Made by a program: the position numbers and the translations under genes
Source: Flavobacteriales bacterium
Lineage (GTDB): Bacteria; Bacteroidota; Bacteroidia; CAIKAF01
Length of the DNA: 64,000 nt
Reading direction: 5' to 3'
Assembly (NCBI GenBank): GCA_018401695.1
Contig: JAGYKD010000001.1
Coordinates: forward strand, 784,016 to 848,015
In this document: positions 25,893 to 53,065 of the stretch, one piece after another
How the letters are laid out: every line of letters begins with the position of its first letter
Position numbering within the stretch: position 1 is the stretch's first letter
Notes under the pieces: generated by a model
Seen by the model: only the letters and a program-made list of their open reading frames with translations
Databases searched by the model: none
What the model was told of the DNA's origin: nothing

Positions 25893-26295
25893 ATGGGCCA
25901 AAAAGAGTAAAAAAACCGGAGGATTTCCCGCCCGGATGGAACGGAAAGCCCGGAGCGGCCAAAGGCTAAAGCCACTTAGCGGGTGGAGGCTGACCGTTTT
26001 TGCGGGCAGACCCAGCACCGCTGCATGGGATAGGGAATGCGTTGCGTTTTCGCGGCAAATTAAGGCGCAGACAAATGGAAAGGCCGCAGTTTACTTGTTG
26101 TAAATGAGGACCTTGAGATTTGGCTGCAACGCAAAGTTGCCGCTAGAATAGCATCGCATTCCCTATCCCATGGTGGATTTGCCTTTGAAAGCGAGGACTT
26201 GAAGGGACAGCCGGAAAAGCGGGCCAAAACATTATGCGACATGATGTACATTTGAAGCAGGGGTGCTATCTTTCCACACCAAAACAAGCCGTTGC
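25893..26295. other. intergenic region with repeat elements
   Basis: 403 bp without a gene. The left part (25928-25957) carries cccgcccgg and aacggaaagcccggagcgg, the motif shared with the palindrome at 22487-22630. The right part is the 149-bp inverted-repeat element at 26024-26172. A near-consensus -7 element TATCTTTC (26267-26274) precedes the fused glycosyltransferase gene. Confidence 0.6.
26024..26172. repeat. 149-bp MITE-like element with perfect 18-bp terminal inverted repeats
   Basis: The ends are catgggatagggaatgcg (26024-26041) and its exact reverse complement (26155-26172). Inside, gcgttgc is answered by gcaacgc. The block cgctagaatagc (26141-26152) matches, inverted, the element at 36863-37013. 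No transposase or open frame lies inside. The size and the ends fit a non-autonomous element. Confidence 0.65.
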
Positions 26296-44553: not shown

Positions 44554-47160
44554 ATGCGAAACAGGTACTTATTTCTTACAAGCCTTGTGTTAATTGGCCT
44601 CTTCTTTGGAAAGCAATTAATGGCACAAGCCACAGACCCTACGCCACAATCTTTGCCATACAGCGAAAACTTCAGCTCTTACAATGGCAGTGCAACCACC
44701 TATCCCGCAGGATGGCAAGGTTGGATTATTCCCGGTGGAAGCTCCTCTTCGTATACCACCGGTGCTGCAAGTGCTGACCAAACCGTTTCCGGAGGAACCG
44801 CCGCCTCTTCGGGCAATGGAGTATATGACTTCTTAGGAAAAATCGGCTGGTTGAATTCAGGTGGAACGGCCAATGGCGTTGCCACAGCAATCGTTACCAC
44901 AGGCCTTTCCAATATTACCGTAAATTATACCATGATGGTCATTCGTGACCCATTCAATGGTTCCAACAATACGCGCATCAATGCCGCCGGCCTGCAATAC
45001 CGAGTAGGTACCACAGGTAGCTTTACCGATGTCCAAGGGACTTCTTATGCCAGCACCGGCATTGGACAAACCAGTGGAACAACGCCTGTTAATCCTAGCA
45101 ACTTCTCTATTGTACTACCTCCTCAATGCGACAATCAGGCGGTGGTGCAATTGCGCTGGATTAGCAAAGATTCTTTGGGCGGTGGCGCACGCCCCAGCTT
45201 TGCGGTAGACTCCCTTTCCGTTTCAGGTTCCGTAAATACAGGCATCCCCGTTTCGCTCTCCTTTTCTTCCAACTTAGGCCTAGAGGCCGCCAGTTCTCAA
45301 ATTACCATCACCGCAACGGCAAACAGCGCTGTAACATCCAACGAAACCGTAGATTTAAACGTATACGGTGCCAACATCACCACCGGTGATTACTCCCTTT
45401 CCAACAGCACCATTTCTATTGCTAATGGACAAACCACCGGCTCGGTAACACTAACCGTTACTGACGACGCACTCAATGAGTTTCCCGAACAGTTGATTGT
45501 TGGTATTCAAAATTTGTCTTCCGGATTAAGTATTGGTACCCCCTCAACCGACACCCTTATTATTATTGATAACGACCAAATCATTGATTTGTTGGCCTTA
45601 GGCACCCCCTCTGCCCTAGAAACTTTCGACCAAATGGACACCGTGGGTACCGGCTTGGGAACTTACCCAAGAGGTATTTATGTCAACGAATCCGGTAACG
45701 GCGATTCCCTATACGATGCCGGTAACGGTAGCTCTTTCTCCGGCGACTCTTACTCTTTCGGCACCAACGGCGTGGCCGAAAGGGCTTTTGGCTCCCTTAC
45801 TACGGGCTCCATCCCTACCATTTTGTTGGGTGCCGCCTTACAAAACAATACCGGCTCCACCATAGACAAGTTGGTGGTTTCCTACAAAGGTGAGCAATGG
45901 CGCACCGGCGGAAATGCCGGAGGTGATTCCCTTTATTTCGAATACTCCCTCAATGCAACCGACCTTAGCAACGGCACTTGGCTTCCTTTTAACCCGCTTA
46001 ATTTTGGCGCCCCTGTCTTTGGTGGCTCTGCTGCCAACCTAGACGGCAATTTGCCCGCCAACGGTCAAGCTTTTTCAGACACCATTTCTCTTATCTCTCC
46101 CGCCCTTAACGGCGATACCATTTGGGTGCGCTGGAGAGACCAAGACGTTCAAGGTAGCGACGATGGACTCGCCATTGATAGCTTGGTGTTTACGCCCATC
46201 TTAACGCCATGTCCCGAACCTACCCAGCAGGCTTCCAACGCATCCTCCTCCAATGTTACCAGTAACTCTGCCAACGTTACTTGGACCAATGGAAATGGAT
46301 CCGGCCGCATTGTGGTTCTTCGCCAAGGCCAAGCGGTTGCCGATTTCCCCGTCGATGGCACCGGCTATACCCCCAATCCTAGCTTCGGCACTACCGGGTC
46401 TGAACTGGGAACAGGGTATGTAGTTTACTCCGGATCCGCAGGAAACTCAGTTAGCGTAAGCAACTTACAGCCTAGCACCACCTACCATGTGGCCATTTTC
46501 GAATTCGATTGCAACCCAGAAGATTACCTTACTACAACGCCTGCGCTGCATAGCTTTACTACCCCATCTGCTTGCCCGGCACCCACTCAAGCGGCCACAA
46601 CGCTAAACTTCACTAGCATTGCCAACACTTCTATGGATGTCACCTGGACCAATGGAAATGGTTCTAGTCGTTTGGTTATCGCACGCGAAGGCCAAGCCGT
46701 TACCGATCTTCCTCAAGACGGCACAAACTATCCGGCCAATGCAGCATACGGCACTACAGGCACCGACTTAGGCTCTGGTTTTGTAGTGTACAATGGTTCC
46801 GCAAACTGGGTAACCGTTACCAATTTGCAGCCCAATACCACCTACCACTTTAGTGTTATTGAATACGACTGCAATCCGGAAGTTTACACCACACAAGCGC
46901 TTACCGGCGATGAAACCACTACCAACTTAAGCATCAATCAGCAAGGTGAAAACCACCTTAGAGTCTATCCTAGTCCTGCTAAAGTTGGAGACATCATCCG
47001 CATGGACGGAATCGATGGTCTCTGGACCTTAAACGACATTTCCGGACGTACGGTACGCCATAACATTCAAGGCCAATTGTCCACGCAAGGACTGCAAGCC
47101 GGCATGTATATCCTGCGCCACAGCAGCGGAAAAGCCGTACGCATACTGCTCCACAAATAA
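44554..47160 (+). CDS. secreted T9SS protein with Calx-beta and two fibronectin III-like domains
   Basis: 868 residues. A signal peptide (YLFLTSLVLIGLFFGKQLMAQ) is followed by a beta-sandwich region of about 200 residues. A Calx-beta domain spans about 228-347 and ends in LIIIDND. A second sandwich region comes next, then two closely related FN3-like repeats starting CPEPTQQASN and CPAPTQAATT, each with VTWTNGNGS and 'LQP.TTYH'. The C-terminal 75 residues (LRVYPSPAKVGD, DISGRTVRHN, LQAGMYILRHSSGKAVRI) are a type A type IX sorting domain. A secreted or surface-attached adhesin-like protein, followed by a terminator. Confidence 0.88.
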   Translation: MRNRYLFLTSLVLIGLFFGKQLMAQATDPTPQSLPYSENFSSYNGSATTYPAGWQGWIIPGGSSSSYTTGAASADQTVSGGTAASSGNGVYDFLGKIGWLNSGGTANGVATAIVTTGLSNITVNYTMMVIRDPFNGSNNTRINAAGLQYRVGTTGSFTDVQGTSYASTGIGQTSGTTPVNPSNFSIVLPPQCDNQAVVQLRWISKDSLGGGARPSFAVDSLSVSGSVNTGIPVSLSFSSNLGLEAASSQITITATANSAVTSNETVDLNVYGANITTGDYSLSNSTISIANGQTTGSVTLTVTDDALNEFPEQLIVGIQNLSSGLSIGTPSTDTLIIIDNDQIIDLLALGTPSALETFDQMDTVGTGLGTYPRGIYVNESGNGDSLYDAGNGSSFSGDSYSFGTNGVAERAFGSLTTGSIPTILLGAALQNNTGSTIDKLVVSYKGEQWRTGGNAGGDSLYFEYSLNATDLSNGTWLPFNPLNFGAPVFGGSAANLDGNLPANGQAFSDTISLISPALNGDTIWVRWRDQDVQGSDDGLAIDSLVFTPILTPCPEPTQQASNASSSNVTSNSANVTWTNGNGSGRIVVLRQGQAVADFPVDGTGYTPNPSFGTTGSELGTGYVVYSGSAGNSVSVSNLQPSTTYHVAIFEFDCNPEDYLTTTPALHSFTTPSACPAPTQAATTLNFTSIANTSMDVTWTNGNGSSRLVIAREGQAVTDLPQDGTNYPANAAYGTTGTDLGSGFVVYNGSANWVTVTNLQPNTTYHFSVIEYDCNPEVYTTQALTGDETTTNLSINQQGENHLRVYPSPAKVGDIIRMDGIDGLWTLNDISGRTVRHNIQGQLSTQGLQAGMYILRHSSGKAVRILLHK

Positions 47161-47214: not shown

Positions 47215-47573
47215 GGGCGCCATTTCCGGTGCTTGGCTTTACTCCGCAGGTCAAATGGCGGTTTTTATAGGCCTGCCAAGCGCTTGCAAGGCTCCGCGTT
47301 GGCAGGCCTTAAAAACCAGCCCTTTGTCCTTTGCGGGGTACCGCCGCGCCCCGGGGCGCTTAAGCTCCGAAATCGAAAGCATGGCCGGGGTTCTAAGCCC
47401 AACAAGGCATTAAAGACCCTAGAAAAATATGCAGGCTTGCGACCACCACATTCCTAGACCATACTCAAGAGTTCAAGCCCGACGCTTTTATCTCCCTTTA
47501 AGGGGTAAATCCCCCCCTAGGCATAATAAACACCCCTTTTCAAAGCAAAAACACAGGATAAGGAATGAAAACC
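47215..47573. other. intergenic region with long hairpin
   Basis: No gene. A strong stem is formed by ggtttttataggcctgccaa (47260-47279) and ttggcaggccttaaaaacc (47299-47317), 19 of 20 positions pairing around a 19-base loop. The rest is G+C-rich, then A-rich, with no recognised feature. Confidence 0.65.
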
Positions 47574-47848
47574 ATGCCCTTTGGCACGCTAAGCATTAAA
47601 CCCGGAACACCAAAGGTTCAGTGTGGAACACTTTTCGTTCAGCTTTGAATACCCAAGCATTCGGACTGGAACGCCGTGCATTTAGCCTTGAACGCCAAAG
47701 GTTCAACCCCAAATAGGGATGCATACCAGCTTGAACGATTTGCGTTCCGTACTGAACGGTTTTTGTTCCAAGCCTATTGATTTCCGTTCCGGGCTGAACG
47801 AATGGCATTCCACGCTGAACGTTTTACGTACCAAAGGAAGAAAAGCCG
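47574..47848. repeat. array of thirteen degenerate 21-bp units
   Basis: Units begin at 47574, 47595, 47616, 47637, 47659, 47680, 47701, 47723, 47744, 47765, 47786, 47807 and 47828, so ten of twelve steps are exactly 21 bp and two are 22. The consensus is [A/G]TTCC, four or five free bases, TGAACG, five free bases, then mostly C. The TTC and GAAC halves are inverted to each other, so the array alternates GTTC and GAAC about every 10 bp. It lies between two convergent transcripts. The 22-bp steps break any continuous reading frame. No known class fits. Confidence 0.75.
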
Positions 47849-48052: not shown

Positions 48053-49696
48053 TTAGGGACAAATACGCGTTATGGTCACGTAACCATGTCCCGTATTCAC
48101 CGTATTCAAATTTTGGATAGGCTGGCCACCAAAACTTCCGCTGTTGGCGTACTGTCCATTTCCGGTGGCAACATTGCTTGCCCCACTGGCAATAAAGGAA
48201 CCTCCGCCGCCACCGGAACCCGAACCGCCATTACCGGAGCCGCCTCCGCCCGAATAACCGCCGCCACCGCCGGAGTGACCGCCGTCATTTCCACCGCCGC
48301 CGCCACCAAAACCACCAAAACCAACGTTTGGATTGTTTGAGCCGGCACCACCCGCACCGCCATTAACAAAGGCCAAGCCCGGGGTAGAACTGTAGGTTCC
48401 TTGCGTGCCGTTGGTTAACAAGCCTCCACCGCCTGAATTACCGGTACTTTGAGCTCCATTTCCGCCATTGCCGTTGCAGCCCCCGGATCCCGGTGCTCCA
48501 CCATCTCCGGTTCTACCACATGTGTTGGTGGTGCCGTCGGAAATACTAAAGGTATTCCTTCCACCACCTCCGCCGGCAATAATTATGGGCGTATTGTTCG
48601 ACTGGGTTACAAAACTTCCACCCCCGCCTCCATCTCCGGAGCCTGAGCCACCTTGTTGGCCAACCAAAATTTTAATCGGTTGACCTGAGGTCAAGGAAAA
48701 CACCCCACGAACAACCGCTCCACGACCTCCCGGACCACCTTGAGCTCCGGCGGTTTCAATGGTATAATTCCCGGTGGCAGGCACAGTCCAGGTCTGAATT
48801 CCTCCGGAAACCGTAACCACACCGCTACCATAGGTACTGTTGCATTGGTTTTGGCTGGGTCCCGTTCTGCCGGTCTGCCCGCAGGTAGTGAATTGCCATT
48901 GTGTTGGTGAGCAAGTACTAATTGCTATGCTTTGCAAATTTGTATCGCTGCACCCATTTTGGTTGGTGGCTATCAATTGCACATTTACGGTTGCTGCTTG
49001 AGTCCAGGTGACCGATGGGTTTTGAGCTACAGAGGAGGCCGGCGTACCGTTTTGAAAGGTCCATTGGTAGGTCAAATTGGCTTGGCTTGCCTGAAATTGT
49101 ACCGCATTATTGACGCTGGGGCTGCTAGGGCTATACGTAAATGCGGCCGAAGGATTGCTTACATCTACCGATAGATTTATTGCATTTGAGCTGCCGCAAC
49201 TGTTGACCGCCACCACACTTATGTTTCGAATTCCGGCGCTATTGGAAAAGTTCACCAAAATGGAGTCCCCGGTGGCATTTCCCACCAAGGTATCTTGATT
49301 GTCAATCGTCCACTGGTAAGAAGCTGCTCCCTGAACAGAAGGCACTACAAAAAGTACCAAGGCATCTCCCGGACACACTTGATTGGGACCGTTGATTTGT
49401 GCGGGTGCAGGAGGTGCTTGGTTGCAATCGCAAGAGGTCGCTTTCCAGCCTGTTGGGAAATAGGCCTCAAAACACTCGGTATCTGTGTTGTAAATCTGTA
49501 GACCAACCGCCGGGTTGGCAATTCCGTTGCGCTGTTGATTGCTTAGACGCGGAATCAAAACCCCGGACTGACTGGATTGCATATCCAATACCGCAGAGGG
49601 GTCGGGTGGGTTGTTGCTGCCAATAGTCACCCCTTGTGCGGTTGCGTTTTGCCCAAGCATGCACACCGTAATCATTAAAAAAATAAGACGTTTCAT
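48053..49696 (-). CDS. surface protein with PKD and ALK/LTK-type glycine-rich domain, copy C
   Basis: 547 residues. A signal peptide (RLIFLMITVCMLGQNATAQ) is followed by the head GVTIGSNNPPDPSAVLDM with GVLIPRLSNQQRN and LQIYNTDTECFEAY, common on Bacteroidota surface proteins. Two Ig/PKD-like domains come next (about 100-185 and 185-265; YQWTFQNGTPASSV). From about 275 to the end is a glycine-rich domain: WTVPATGNYTIETAGAQGG, IKILVGQQGG, GGGGGSFV and IIIAGGGGG. That order is the pattern of the ALK/LTK extracellular glycine-rich domain (PF12810). It ends YVTITRICP with no T9SS tail. Last of three paralogues, 12 bp after the next one. Confidence 0.85.
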   Translation of the reverse strand: MKRLIFLMITVCMLGQNATAQGVTIGSNNPPDPSAVLDMQSSQSGVLIPRLSNQQRNGIANPAVGLQIYNTDTECFEAYFPTGWKATSCDCNQAPPAPAQINGPNQVCPGDALVLFVVPSVQGAASYQWTIDNQDTLVGNATGDSILVNFSNSAGIRNISVVAVNSCGSSNAINLSVDVSNPSAAFTYSPSSPSVNNAVQFQASQANLTYQWTFQNGTPASSVAQNPSVTWTQAATVNVQLIATNQNGCSDTNLQSIAISTCSPTQWQFTTCGQTGRTGPSQNQCNSTYGSGVVTVSGGIQTWTVPATGNYTIETAGAQGGPGGRGAVVRGVFSLTSGQPIKILVGQQGGSGSGDGGGGGSFVTQSNNTPIIIAGGGGGRNTFSISDGTTNTCGRTGDGGAPGSGGCNGNGGNGAQSTGNSGGGGLLTNGTQGTYSSTPGLAFVNGGAGGAGSNNPNVGFGGFGGGGGGNDGGHSGGGGGYSGGGGSGNGGSGSGGGGGSFIASGASNVATGNGQYANSGSFGGQPIQNLNTVNTGHGYVTITRICP

Positions 49697-49708
49697 TGTG
49701 TATTCGTT

Positions 49709-51364
49709 TTAAGGACAAATTCTAGTAATCGTTACATAGCCTTGGCCGGAATTTGCACCGGAGCTGTTGGAGGGGTTTGCTCCTGAATTGAAGGAACCGC
49801 CACCACCGCCGCCGGAACTTTGGCCATCGCCGCCGCCACCGGACCAGCCACCGCCGGCTGATGCTCGGTGCCCTACGCCTGCACCACCGCCAAAGCCGCC
49901 TTCTACTCCTCCATTCTGGGTGTCGGCCGGACCGCCGGCTCCACCATTTAAAAAGCTCTCTCCGGCACATTGAAATGACCCACTGCAATGGTATCCGCCC
50001 CTGGTATAAAATCCTCCACCCCCTGCACCGTAAGAACAAGACGAACCATTTCCCCCGGGTTGGGATTGGGTCCCTGCGGAACCTCCTGTTCCGGCTCCCC
50101 CGCCGCCTCCATTAATGCCGCCTTGTCCGGAACCTCCTCCGGAGCTGGTGCCATTTAAACCACTGGTTCCGGGCAATCCATCCTGACTACCTCCGGCTCC
50201 GCCGCCACCGCCGGCTACGATAAGGGGTACATTGCCGGACTGTAAAACTACAAAAGACCCTCCGCTGCCGGCTCCTGAACTGTTGGAACCACTGCCCCCC
50301 CGGTTGGGGGCCTGTTGACCCACCAAAATGCGCAATACATCACCGGCATTTAAACTGAAATCCCCCTGCATTATTGCTCCTAAACCTCCCGGACGACCGG
50401 CTCCCTGACCGCCCTGAGCACCGGCTGCTGTAATTCGGTAAGTCCCCGTTGCAGGAACAGACCATGCCTGTATGCCTCCATTCACCGTCACCACTCCGGG
50501 ACCATAGCTGCTATTGCATTGGCTCTGGCTTGGGCCCAAACGACCTGTTGCCCCGCAAGTGGTAAACTGCCAAGTATTCGGTTGACAATTCACCACCTGT
50601 ATTAAGCTATCGAGTGTATCCTTGCAACCTGCCGGACTTGTAGCAATTAACTGAACCTGAACCTGACCCGTTTGTGTCCAGGTTACCGAAGGGCTGCTGC
50701 TAACCGAGGAGGCTGGAGTTCCATTTTGGAATGTCCAGGCAAAATTGGCATTGGGCGTTGTTGCGTTGAATTGTGCCGGATTGTTAATGACCGGACTGTT
50801 GGGGCTCATGGTAAACGTGGCACTTGGGCTTGCTACCTGAACCGAAAAAGAGGAGGAGGGCGAGACCCCACAAGAGTTCCCTGCAGTTACACTTATGTTC
50901 CTTGCCCCTTGAAGGTTGCTAAAATTCACTTGTATGCTATCTCCCCCGTTTGCGCCAACCAAGGTGTCCTGATTATCAATTACCCATTGGTATTGTACCG
51001 CACCCTGCACAGGAGCAACCGAAAAAGTAGCCAACGTATCGCCCGGACAAACCAAGGCAGGTCCTTGAATTTGACCAGGAGCCGGTGGGGCTGTGCTGCA
51101 ATCGCATCCGGTGGCTTTCCAACCCGAAGGAAACCAAACCTCCACACACTTATTGGTGGTATTGTAAATGTGTAAGCCTTCCGCAGGGTTTTGTATGGCA
51201 TTACGTTGGGCGGTGCTTAGTCTAGGCAATAGCAACCCTTGATTGATGGATTGAAGATCCAGTACGGCCGTAGGGTCAGGAGGGTTCGTTGACCCAATGG
51301 TTACGCCTTGGCTTTGCAATCCCAGGCTTAGGAACAAAAGAACAAAAAGGGGGAAAGGACGCAT
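49709..51364 (-). CDS. surface protein with PKD and ALK/LTK-type glycine-rich domain, copy B
   Basis: 551 residues, same plan as its two neighbours: signal peptide (FPLFVLLFLSLGLQSQ), head GVTIGSTNPPDPTAVLDL, the W-x5-C pair FPSGWKATGCDC, and two PKD-like domains (YQWVIDNQDTLVG, FAWTFQNGTPASSV). The glycine-rich part has WSVPATGTYRITAAGAQGG, LRILVGQQAPN, GGSFVVLQSGNVPLIVAGGG and the end YVTITRICP. Its glycine-rich segment differs most from the other copies in loop lengths and has extra cysteines (YHCSGSFQCAGES). It starts 12 bp after copy A ends. Confidence 0.85.
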   Translation of the reverse strand: MRPFPLFVLLFLSLGLQSQGVTIGSTNPPDPTAVLDLQSINQGLLLPRLSTAQRNAIQNPAEGLHIYNTTNKCVEVWFPSGWKATGCDCSTAPPAPGQIQGPALVCPGDTLATFSVAPVQGAVQYQWVIDNQDTLVGANGGDSIQVNFSNLQGARNISVTAGNSCGVSPSSSFSVQVASPSATFTMSPNSPVINNPAQFNATTPNANFAWTFQNGTPASSVSSSPSVTWTQTGQVQVQLIATSPAGCKDTLDSLIQVVNCQPNTWQFTTCGATGRLGPSQSQCNSSYGPGVVTVNGGIQAWSVPATGTYRITAAGAQGGQGAGRPGGLGAIMQGDFSLNAGDVLRILVGQQAPNRGGSGSNSSGAGSGGSFVVLQSGNVPLIVAGGGGGAGGSQDGLPGTSGLNGTSSGGGSGQGGINGGGGGAGTGGSAGTQSQPGGNGSSCSYGAGGGGFYTRGGYHCSGSFQCAGESFLNGGAGGPADTQNGGVEGGFGGGAGVGHRASAGGGWSGGGGDGQSSGGGGGGSFNSGANPSNSSGANSGQGYVTITRICP

Positions 51365-51376
51365 AATGGTTTGGAT

Positions 51377-53065
51377 TTATGGACAAACCCGGGTTATGGT
51401 TATGGAACATTGACCAGCATTGTAGCTGTTGAGGTTTTGAACGGGCGAACCGTTGAAACTGCTGCTGTTGTTGTACTGCCCATTGGAGGTCGCCACATTG
51501 GTAGCGGTAGACACCACGTAGGAACCGCCACCACCGCCACCATTTCTGCCATCGGTGTTGCCGGAGCCGGTATTGGTGCTGTAGTTTCCACCGCCGCCGC
51601 CGGAATAGCCGCCACCACCGCCGCCGGCATGACTTCCGTCGCGGTTATCGCCGCCGCCACCGAAGCCGGCCACAGAGCCATGACTTCCGGTAATGCCGTT
51701 AAAATTGCCTGAGCCGGACATGCTGTTCCAGCCTTTTCCGCCCCACCCCGATTGAGCATCGCCTCCATTGGTGCCGAAAATGGGGTCATTATTATAGGCC
51801 GGCAAACCGGATGGACCAGTATTGCCTCCTTTTCCGGGTAAAAAAACCGAACTTCCCGTGGTGTTTGTAATGGAACCACCGCCGCCGCCACCGGCAACAA
51901 CCAAAGGTTGAGCCTGGCCTGAAATCCAAACAAAGCTGCCGCCACCACCACGGCCACCACCATTTGCCGTGTTTCCCGAAGAGTTTTGATTGGCCTCTTG
52001 CCCCACAACCATGCGTACTTGATCGCCGGCATTAAGGGTTACATCGGCTTCAATAATAGCTCCGGGCCCCCTGTTTCCTTGACTTACCCCATTGGGGATT
52101 CCTCCTCTGGCGCCCTCGGCACGTATTCGGTAAGTACCCGAGGTGGGCACAACCCAGCTTTGTATTCCATTACTTACAGAAACAACCCCTGTACCGTAAG
52201 TGCTGTTGCATTGGCTTTGGCTAGGACCGGTATTGCCGTTTTGACCACAATTGCTAAAGCTAAAGGTGGCCGGTTGGCAATTGACCACATTCAAAAGGCT
52301 ATCTAATGTGTCCACACAACCAGCGGGGCTGGTGGCAATCAAGCGAACCTGTACCTGACCAATTTGCGACCAAGTAACTTGAGGGTTTTGACTTACCGAA
52401 GAAGCCGGGGTTCCATTTTGAAAGGTCCAAGCAAAGCTAGCGTTGGCCGTGGTGGCATTGAACTGTGCCGCATTATTGATGTTTGGCGAAGAAGGGTTCA
52501 CCGTAAAGGCTGCCAAGGGATTGGCTACTTGCACCTGGAAGGTAGAAGCCGAAGAAACACCACAAGAATTACTGGCCGTTACGCTTATGGTTCTGCTTCC
52601 TTGCCCATTGGAAAAGCTTACCGATATACTGTCTCCTCCATTATTCCCCACTAAAGTATCTTGGTTATCGATTACCCACTGGTATTGAACAGCTCCCTGC
52701 ACTTGTGGAACCGAAAACTGCACTGAAGCATCACCGGGACAAACCAAAGCAGGCCCCAAAATTTGACCGGGAGTAGAAGGCGGGGCTGAACAATCGCAAC
52801 CGGTCGCTTTCCAACCCGAGGGAAACCAAACTTCCACACATTTATTGGTGGTATTATATATTTGAAGACCTTCCGGAGGGTTTTGCAAGGCATTTCGCTG
52901 TGAAGTACTGAGTCGTGGCAACAACAGGCCTCCATTGGTGCCGCTTACCTCAAGCGTCGCATTTGGATTTGGTGGAGTATTGCTGCCAATGTTTACGCCT
53001 TGGGCTTTAGAAGAAAGGCCGGCGAACATGCACAAGGAGAGCATTAAAAGTGAAGTAAAACGCAT
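51377..53065 (-). CDS. surface protein with PKD and ALK/LTK-type glycine-rich domain, copy A
   Basis: 562 residues and the first gene of the three-gene minus-strand operon, with a perfect -7 element upstream (53091-53098). Signal peptide (SLLMLSLCMFAGLSSKAQ), head GVNIGSNTPPNPNATLEV, two PKD-like domains nearly identical in motif to copy B, then WVVPTSGTYRIRAEGARGG, VRMVVGQEANQ, GGGGSFVWISGQAQPLVVAGG and the end SITITRVCP. Export is by Sec; how it stays at the surface is not visible. Confidence 0.85.
   Translation of the reverse strand: MRFTSLLMLSLCMFAGLSSKAQGVNIGSNTPPNPNATLEVSGTNGGLLLPRLSTSQRNALQNPPEGLQIYNTTNKCVEVWFPSGWKATGCDCSAPPSTPGQILGPALVCPGDASVQFSVPQVQGAVQYQWVIDNQDTLVGNNGGDSISVSFSNGQGSRTISVTASNSCGVSSASTFQVQVANPLAAFTVNPSSPNINNAAQFNATTANASFAWTFQNGTPASSVSQNPQVTWSQIGQVQVRLIATSPAGCVDTLDSLLNVVNCQPATFSFSNCGQNGNTGPSQSQCNSTYGTGVVSVSNGIQSWVVPTSGTYRIRAEGARGGIPNGVSQGNRGPGAIIEADVTLNAGDQVRMVVGQEANQNSSGNTANGGGRGGGGSFVWISGQAQPLVVAGGGGGGSITNTTGSSVFLPGKGGNTGPSGLPAYNNDPIFGTNGGDAQSGWGGKGWNSMSGSGNFNGITGSHGSVAGFGGGGDNRDGSHAGGGGGGYSGGGGGNYSTNTGSGNTDGRNGGGGGGSYVVSTATNVATSNGQYNNSSSFNGSPVQNLNSYNAGQCSITITRVCP

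Follow-up and report, generated by a model that had tools for sequence, protein, structure and literature searches.

Does the even spacing of a series of otherwise divergent 21-bp units reflect selection, as for a protein that reads them, or is it what remains of an old tandem duplication? The locus that raises this question lies within a stretch of 64,000 nucleotides from a Flavobacteriales bacterium (the window, to which plain coordinates refer), taken from a genome of 2.99 Mb (G000). A sequence-only reading had described here thirteen degenerate units in 21-bp phase, two of the steps being 22 bp, with inverted GTTC/GAAC half-sites. It had proposed that the spacing is under selection, as for a cooperative DNA-binding or architectural protein, and that the position between convergent transcripts would fit a barrier or insulator.

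Layout of the array

The array is a real feature, located in the gap between two convergent genes (Table 1). Its units start at 47574, 47595, 47616, 47637, 47659, 47680, 47701, 47723, 47744, 47765, 47786, 47807 and 47828, so ten of the twelve unit-to-unit steps are 21 bp and two are 22 bp (47637 to 47659 and 47701 to 47723), as had been claimed. Identity at a lag of 21 is 0.484 inside the array, whereas other lags average 0.236 and do not exceed 0.310. Measured over 250-bp windows, the 21-bp periodicity of the array (0.492) is the highest found, the mean for the whole stretch being 0.267 (sd 0.037) and the best value elsewhere 0.408. The inverted half-sites also hold up, in the form of a unit rule in which the GAAC half-site lies 10 bp downstream of the first half-site, giving half-site spacings of 10 and 11 bp over all 13 units. 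Column 1 of the unit is T in 13 of 13 cases and column 11 is A in 12 of 13, while several spacer columns are near random. The pattern GTTCN6GAACN7GTTC, with at most one mismatch, has seven matches in the window, all seven within the array, where shuffled sequence gives an expectation of 0.19. The terminal units (47574 and 47828) are weak. Mean likeness between units is 46%, and long identical repeats are absent, unlike in a CRISPR array; Tandem Repeats Finder (score 40), run on the window, did not report the array because its units are too divergent.

Table 1. Coordinates of the array, its neighbours and nearby elements in the window
Feature	Position	Strand	Remarks
Copy of dispersed element	26037-26159		about 140-150 bp, inverted ends
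868-aa protein, fn3/Pur_ac_phosph_N (purple-acid-phosphatase N-terminal) domain (left neighbour)	44554..47160	+	3' end toward array; orthologue in G002
Imperfect inverted repeat	47226-47354		about 130 bp; separate from but close to array; well conserved in G002
Degenerate 21-bp array, 13 units	47574..47848	.	rule RTTC-N6-GAAY-N7; solid core about 47595-47822
First 22-bp unit	47637..47658	.	shifts the reading frame
Second 22-bp unit	47701..47722	.	common to the orthologous G002 array; also shifts the frame
547-aa PKD-domain, glycine-rich protein (right neighbour)	48053..49696	-	3' end toward array
Three consecutive paralogous genes for PKD-type glycine-rich proteins	48053-53065		547-562 aa; order kept in G002

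The imperfect inverted repeat near the array has a 75% identical copy elsewhere in the genome (G000:C13:142617-142764), along with short partial copies. Sampled GC skew was irregular, with no clear switch at the array of the kind expected for a replication origin or terminus.

Orthologous array in a congeneric species

Of five other genomes of the genus searched by pattern, one, that of the congeneric species G002, carries the array, at the same site between orthologous genes. The aligned parts correspond unit by unit, and at least one 22-bp step is common to both genomes. Random spacing between units in relatives, which the sequence-only reading had named as contrary evidence, was not found in this sister species. 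The G002 array is larger than that of G000 by whole-unit blocks, one of 42 bp seen in the alignment and one of about 85 bp taken from a reading of the unit series by hand rather than from alignment output. Aligned stretches of the two arrays appear more alike than the third codon positions of the neighbouring gene (67% identical).

The G002 array is interrupted by an inserted mobile-like element, about 150 bp long and bearing inverted ends. This dispersed element, which appears MITE-like, is represented in the window (Table 1) and at L029 6520-6670 (G002:C49:40519-40669); in the copy within the G002 array its inverted ends are GAGACTGTTGATGCG. With fragments included, 53 matches were found in G000 and 47 in G002, and none in the genomes G001, G003 and G004.

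Tests for selection

The dyad half-sites are non-random. Half-site columns are kept while spacers are near random, with P = 0.0003-0.003 under star decay and P = 0.02-0.05 under decay with tandem duplication, the latter in the version of the simulation matched to the observed identity. The dyad score lies above nearly all simulations, which assume a random founder, so this excess can be explained by a palindromic founder unit. Between species, G000 and G002 differ at 11 of 92 half-site positions (12%) and at 26 of 138 spacer positions (19%), a comparison for which the units were aligned partly by hand and which gives no significant difference (P = 0.20). Constraint on the half-sites is possible.

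Occurrence of the half-site rule

The array pattern has no other match in the 2.99-Mb genome, the array being single copy, and the exact three-half-site site is likewise absent elsewhere. For 21-bp arrays with other half-sites the genome was examined in sampled stretches only, and these (about 444 kb) hold no second non-coding array of that period. They do contain other tandem arrays, with periods of 19, 26, 27, 28/34 and 36/61 bp (L134 3887-4370; L127 16989-17206; L132 5918-6106 and 12191-12444; L136 18894-19206), several of them composed of partly self-complementary units, for example with GCTCCGTAGGAGC cores. Because these periods range from 19 to 61 bp, two helical turns are no general rule for satellites in this genome.

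The exact five-half-site pattern, which fixes 20 bases, occurs in 60 stretches of genome_contigs; our own estimate of the number expected, from base counts over 257 billion bases and both strands, is about 0.5. The hosts include Treponema, Flavobacterium and other Bacteroidota, cyanobacteria, Thermoanaerobaculia, Verrucomicrobia and others. High-GC Actinobacteria also yield single matches, but these fall inside long, weakly periodic reading frames and probably reflect coding sequence or chance. A survey whose pattern prescribes the half-sites is no proof that GTTC/GAAC is preferred to others. In viral contigs a half-site control gave one stretch for GTTC/GAAC and three for CTTG/CAAG, which is uninformative, and no phage relative was found. 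The exact five-half-site pattern had no match in 395 genomes of the phylum and missed even the array of the window, which means that it is too strict for worn arrays and that this null result speaks for the rarity of homogeneous ones.

Most 21-bp arrays sampled without selection from other genomes are non-dyadic, so the common feature seems to be constant size and not dyad symmetry. G030, a genome of another family, follows the same spacing rule in at least two arrays and has one more that is related; a 280-kb sample of it shows several arrays of 21, 22 or 42 bp with differing sequences (L186 155-454, L192 13496-13644, L197 5497-5571, L184 7964-8090). A single Treponema MAG (isolate Gx481_bin55) contains many separate arrays that follow the GTTC/GAAC 21-bp rule (L055, L066, L071, L079, L083, L102, L107). 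The proposed role as a barrier or insulator finds no support in the position of rule-matching arrays, which show no preference for convergent gaps: a crude gene caller, applied to 49 loci, put 17 of them in tandem gaps, 7 in convergent and 5 in divergent ones, with 7 more possibly intragenic and 13 unplaced.

Coding capacity and RNA folding

The array is non-coding. Each of the six reading frames of the window array contains 2-6 stops, both 22-bp steps shift the frame, and the longer part of the G002 array likewise has stops in every frame, so a coding heptad repeat is rejected for the window array and the continuous heptad protein that the sequence-only reading had allowed for was not found. 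A protein-coding heptad repeat (xGTxxVx) that has decayed and lost its frame would account for a period of seven codons, and heptads are indeed legible in part of the minus strand (YGTQIVQ, LGTKTVQ) and in G030 (NGTKLVR). However, the stops and frame shifts just described, the lack of a Pfam match for the 69-aa frame, and the occurrence of open frames in other genomes on both strands and in several phases, as with any 21-bp repeat, make this origin very improbable. Somewhat less remote, and still improbable, is a structured RNA, in which the transcribed array would form a long imperfect hairpin and act as double-stranded RNA or as a bidirectional terminator. The location between convergent genes would suit such a role, and each strand of the array gives a more stable fold than shuffled sequence does (z = -3.3 and -3.8). 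However, the observed fold energy was reached by 105 of 300 shuffles of unit order on the plus strand and 224 of 300 on the minus strand, and shuffles of the spacers fold about equally well too, which shows that no specific long-range pairing is maintained, excludes a long selected hairpin and makes the folding a by-product of the self-complementary units. Moreover, an Rfam search of the array reached no family at gathering score, and arrays elsewhere are not bound to convergent gaps.

Relation to known repeats

Constant-size repeats of 20-21 nt are reportedly the subject of a paper by Subirana and Messeguer in J. Bacteriol. in 2020. Bacterial tandem repeats of this length have been described as constant in size, variable in sequence and mostly non-coding, their length corresponding to two turns of DNA, and a polymerising protein or small RNAs have been suggested, without test, to underlie them (Subirana and Messeguer, PMC8161180). 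The array resembles them in its size of 21, its variable non-coding sequence and its short conserved signal, whereas the published repeats are uniform enough to be picked up by repeat finders, and a genome often has many of them (PMC8161180). In contrast, this array is very degenerate, single copy and built on an alternating GTTC/GAAC dyad instead of one signal. It has the repeat length of the class in at least four copies, stops in all frames and conserved RTTC/GAAY columns; as for the number of arrays per genome, its pattern is unique in its own genome (about 444 kb sampled for arrays of the same size), and G030 has several. The array thus fits as a degenerate member of the 20-21 nt constant-size repeats, with an alternating dyad, that was missed by Tandem Repeats Finder.

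Other known systems bear a more limited likeness. Prokaryotic satellites comprise at least four tandem repeats of 10-200 nt (PMC6749651), and the array exceeds that number with a unit within that range, but it is very degenerate and escapes the standard repeat finder. The palindromic repeat coding elements known as PARCEL encode a 25-residue (75-nt) protein repeat (PMC2996958); they share with the array tandem repetition, dyad symmetry and occurrence in distant clades, but membership is rejected because the array has a period of 21 and no reading frame. Half-sites of the GAAC/GTTC type are also found in operators of the LexA/DinR type. The box of the Gram-positive regulator is GAAC-N4-GTTC; in the array the gaps are 6 and 7 bp and the sites form a long series, so a LexA operator is rejected as well.

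Origin and possible function

On balance we lean towards the array being an old and degenerate non-coding satellite whose 21-bp units are self-complementary, held in a convergent gap that tolerates it, and most likely neutral or weakly constrained. Such a satellite would have begun with a palindromic founder unit that duplicated in tandem, by slippage or by unequal recombination, with the aid of pairing between self-complementary units. Its phase would have been kept since point changes leave spacing alone and changes in size come in whole units; any function may be weak or lost. This reading rests on the whole-unit blocks, of 42 bp and about 85 bp, by which the G000 and G002 arrays differ in size at one site, on orthology in one sister species and on the non-significant half-site constraint between them. 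It further draws on the presence of several other tandem arrays in the genome, some with partly self-complementary units, on the dispersed element accepted by the G002 array, on the stops in all six frames together with the frame-shifting 22-bp steps, on a unit motif that fully explains the RNA hairpin, and on the agreement with the published class (PMC8161180). Against it count the dyad score, the concentration of conservation in half-site columns beyond what plain decay predicts, and the likeness of the two arrays above that of the neighbour's third codon positions.

The main alternative is a phased array bound by a protein, for which a dimeric, helix-turn-helix-type protein would recognise inverted half-sites every 10-11 bp, that is, once per helical turn on one face of the DNA, and form a filament with a local architectural role. 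This idea is close to the published suggestion of a polymerising protein (PMC8161180). It would explain why the half-site spacing of 10 and 11 bp runs through all 13 units, why the conserved columns are the arms of the dyad, and why the rule recurs in genome_contigs so far above expectation. However, there is no known binder, half-site conservation between species falls short of significance, the exact three-half-site site is confined to the array within this genome, the other congeners lack the array by pattern search and the other satellites of the genome differ in period, so we regard such binding as unlikely, if clearly worth considering. More doubtful still is its extension to many phyla, according to which a cooperative DNA-binding protein would read RTTC-N6-GAAY half-sites once in every turn of the helix, this geometry having emerged in them or been dispersed among them. 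Thus the phase and the inverted half-sites of the sequence-only reading stand, whereas selection for spacing and cooperative binding remain hypothetical, given the comparison of half-sites with spacers (P = 0.20), the periods of 19-36 bp in other arrays of the genome and the mostly non-dyadic nature of unselected 21-bp arrays.

The 20-21 nt repeats of bacteria have been described but have no known function. The array shows that members of this class can persist at one locus in two species, changing in size by whole units, even when they are so worn that a standard repeat finder misses them, and it supplies an explicit, testable half-site rule. Should a cooperative protein prove to read these half-sites, it would provide a molecular basis for the unexplained 20-21 nt repeats, and a binding protein, if found, could answer the question that these repeats have left open.
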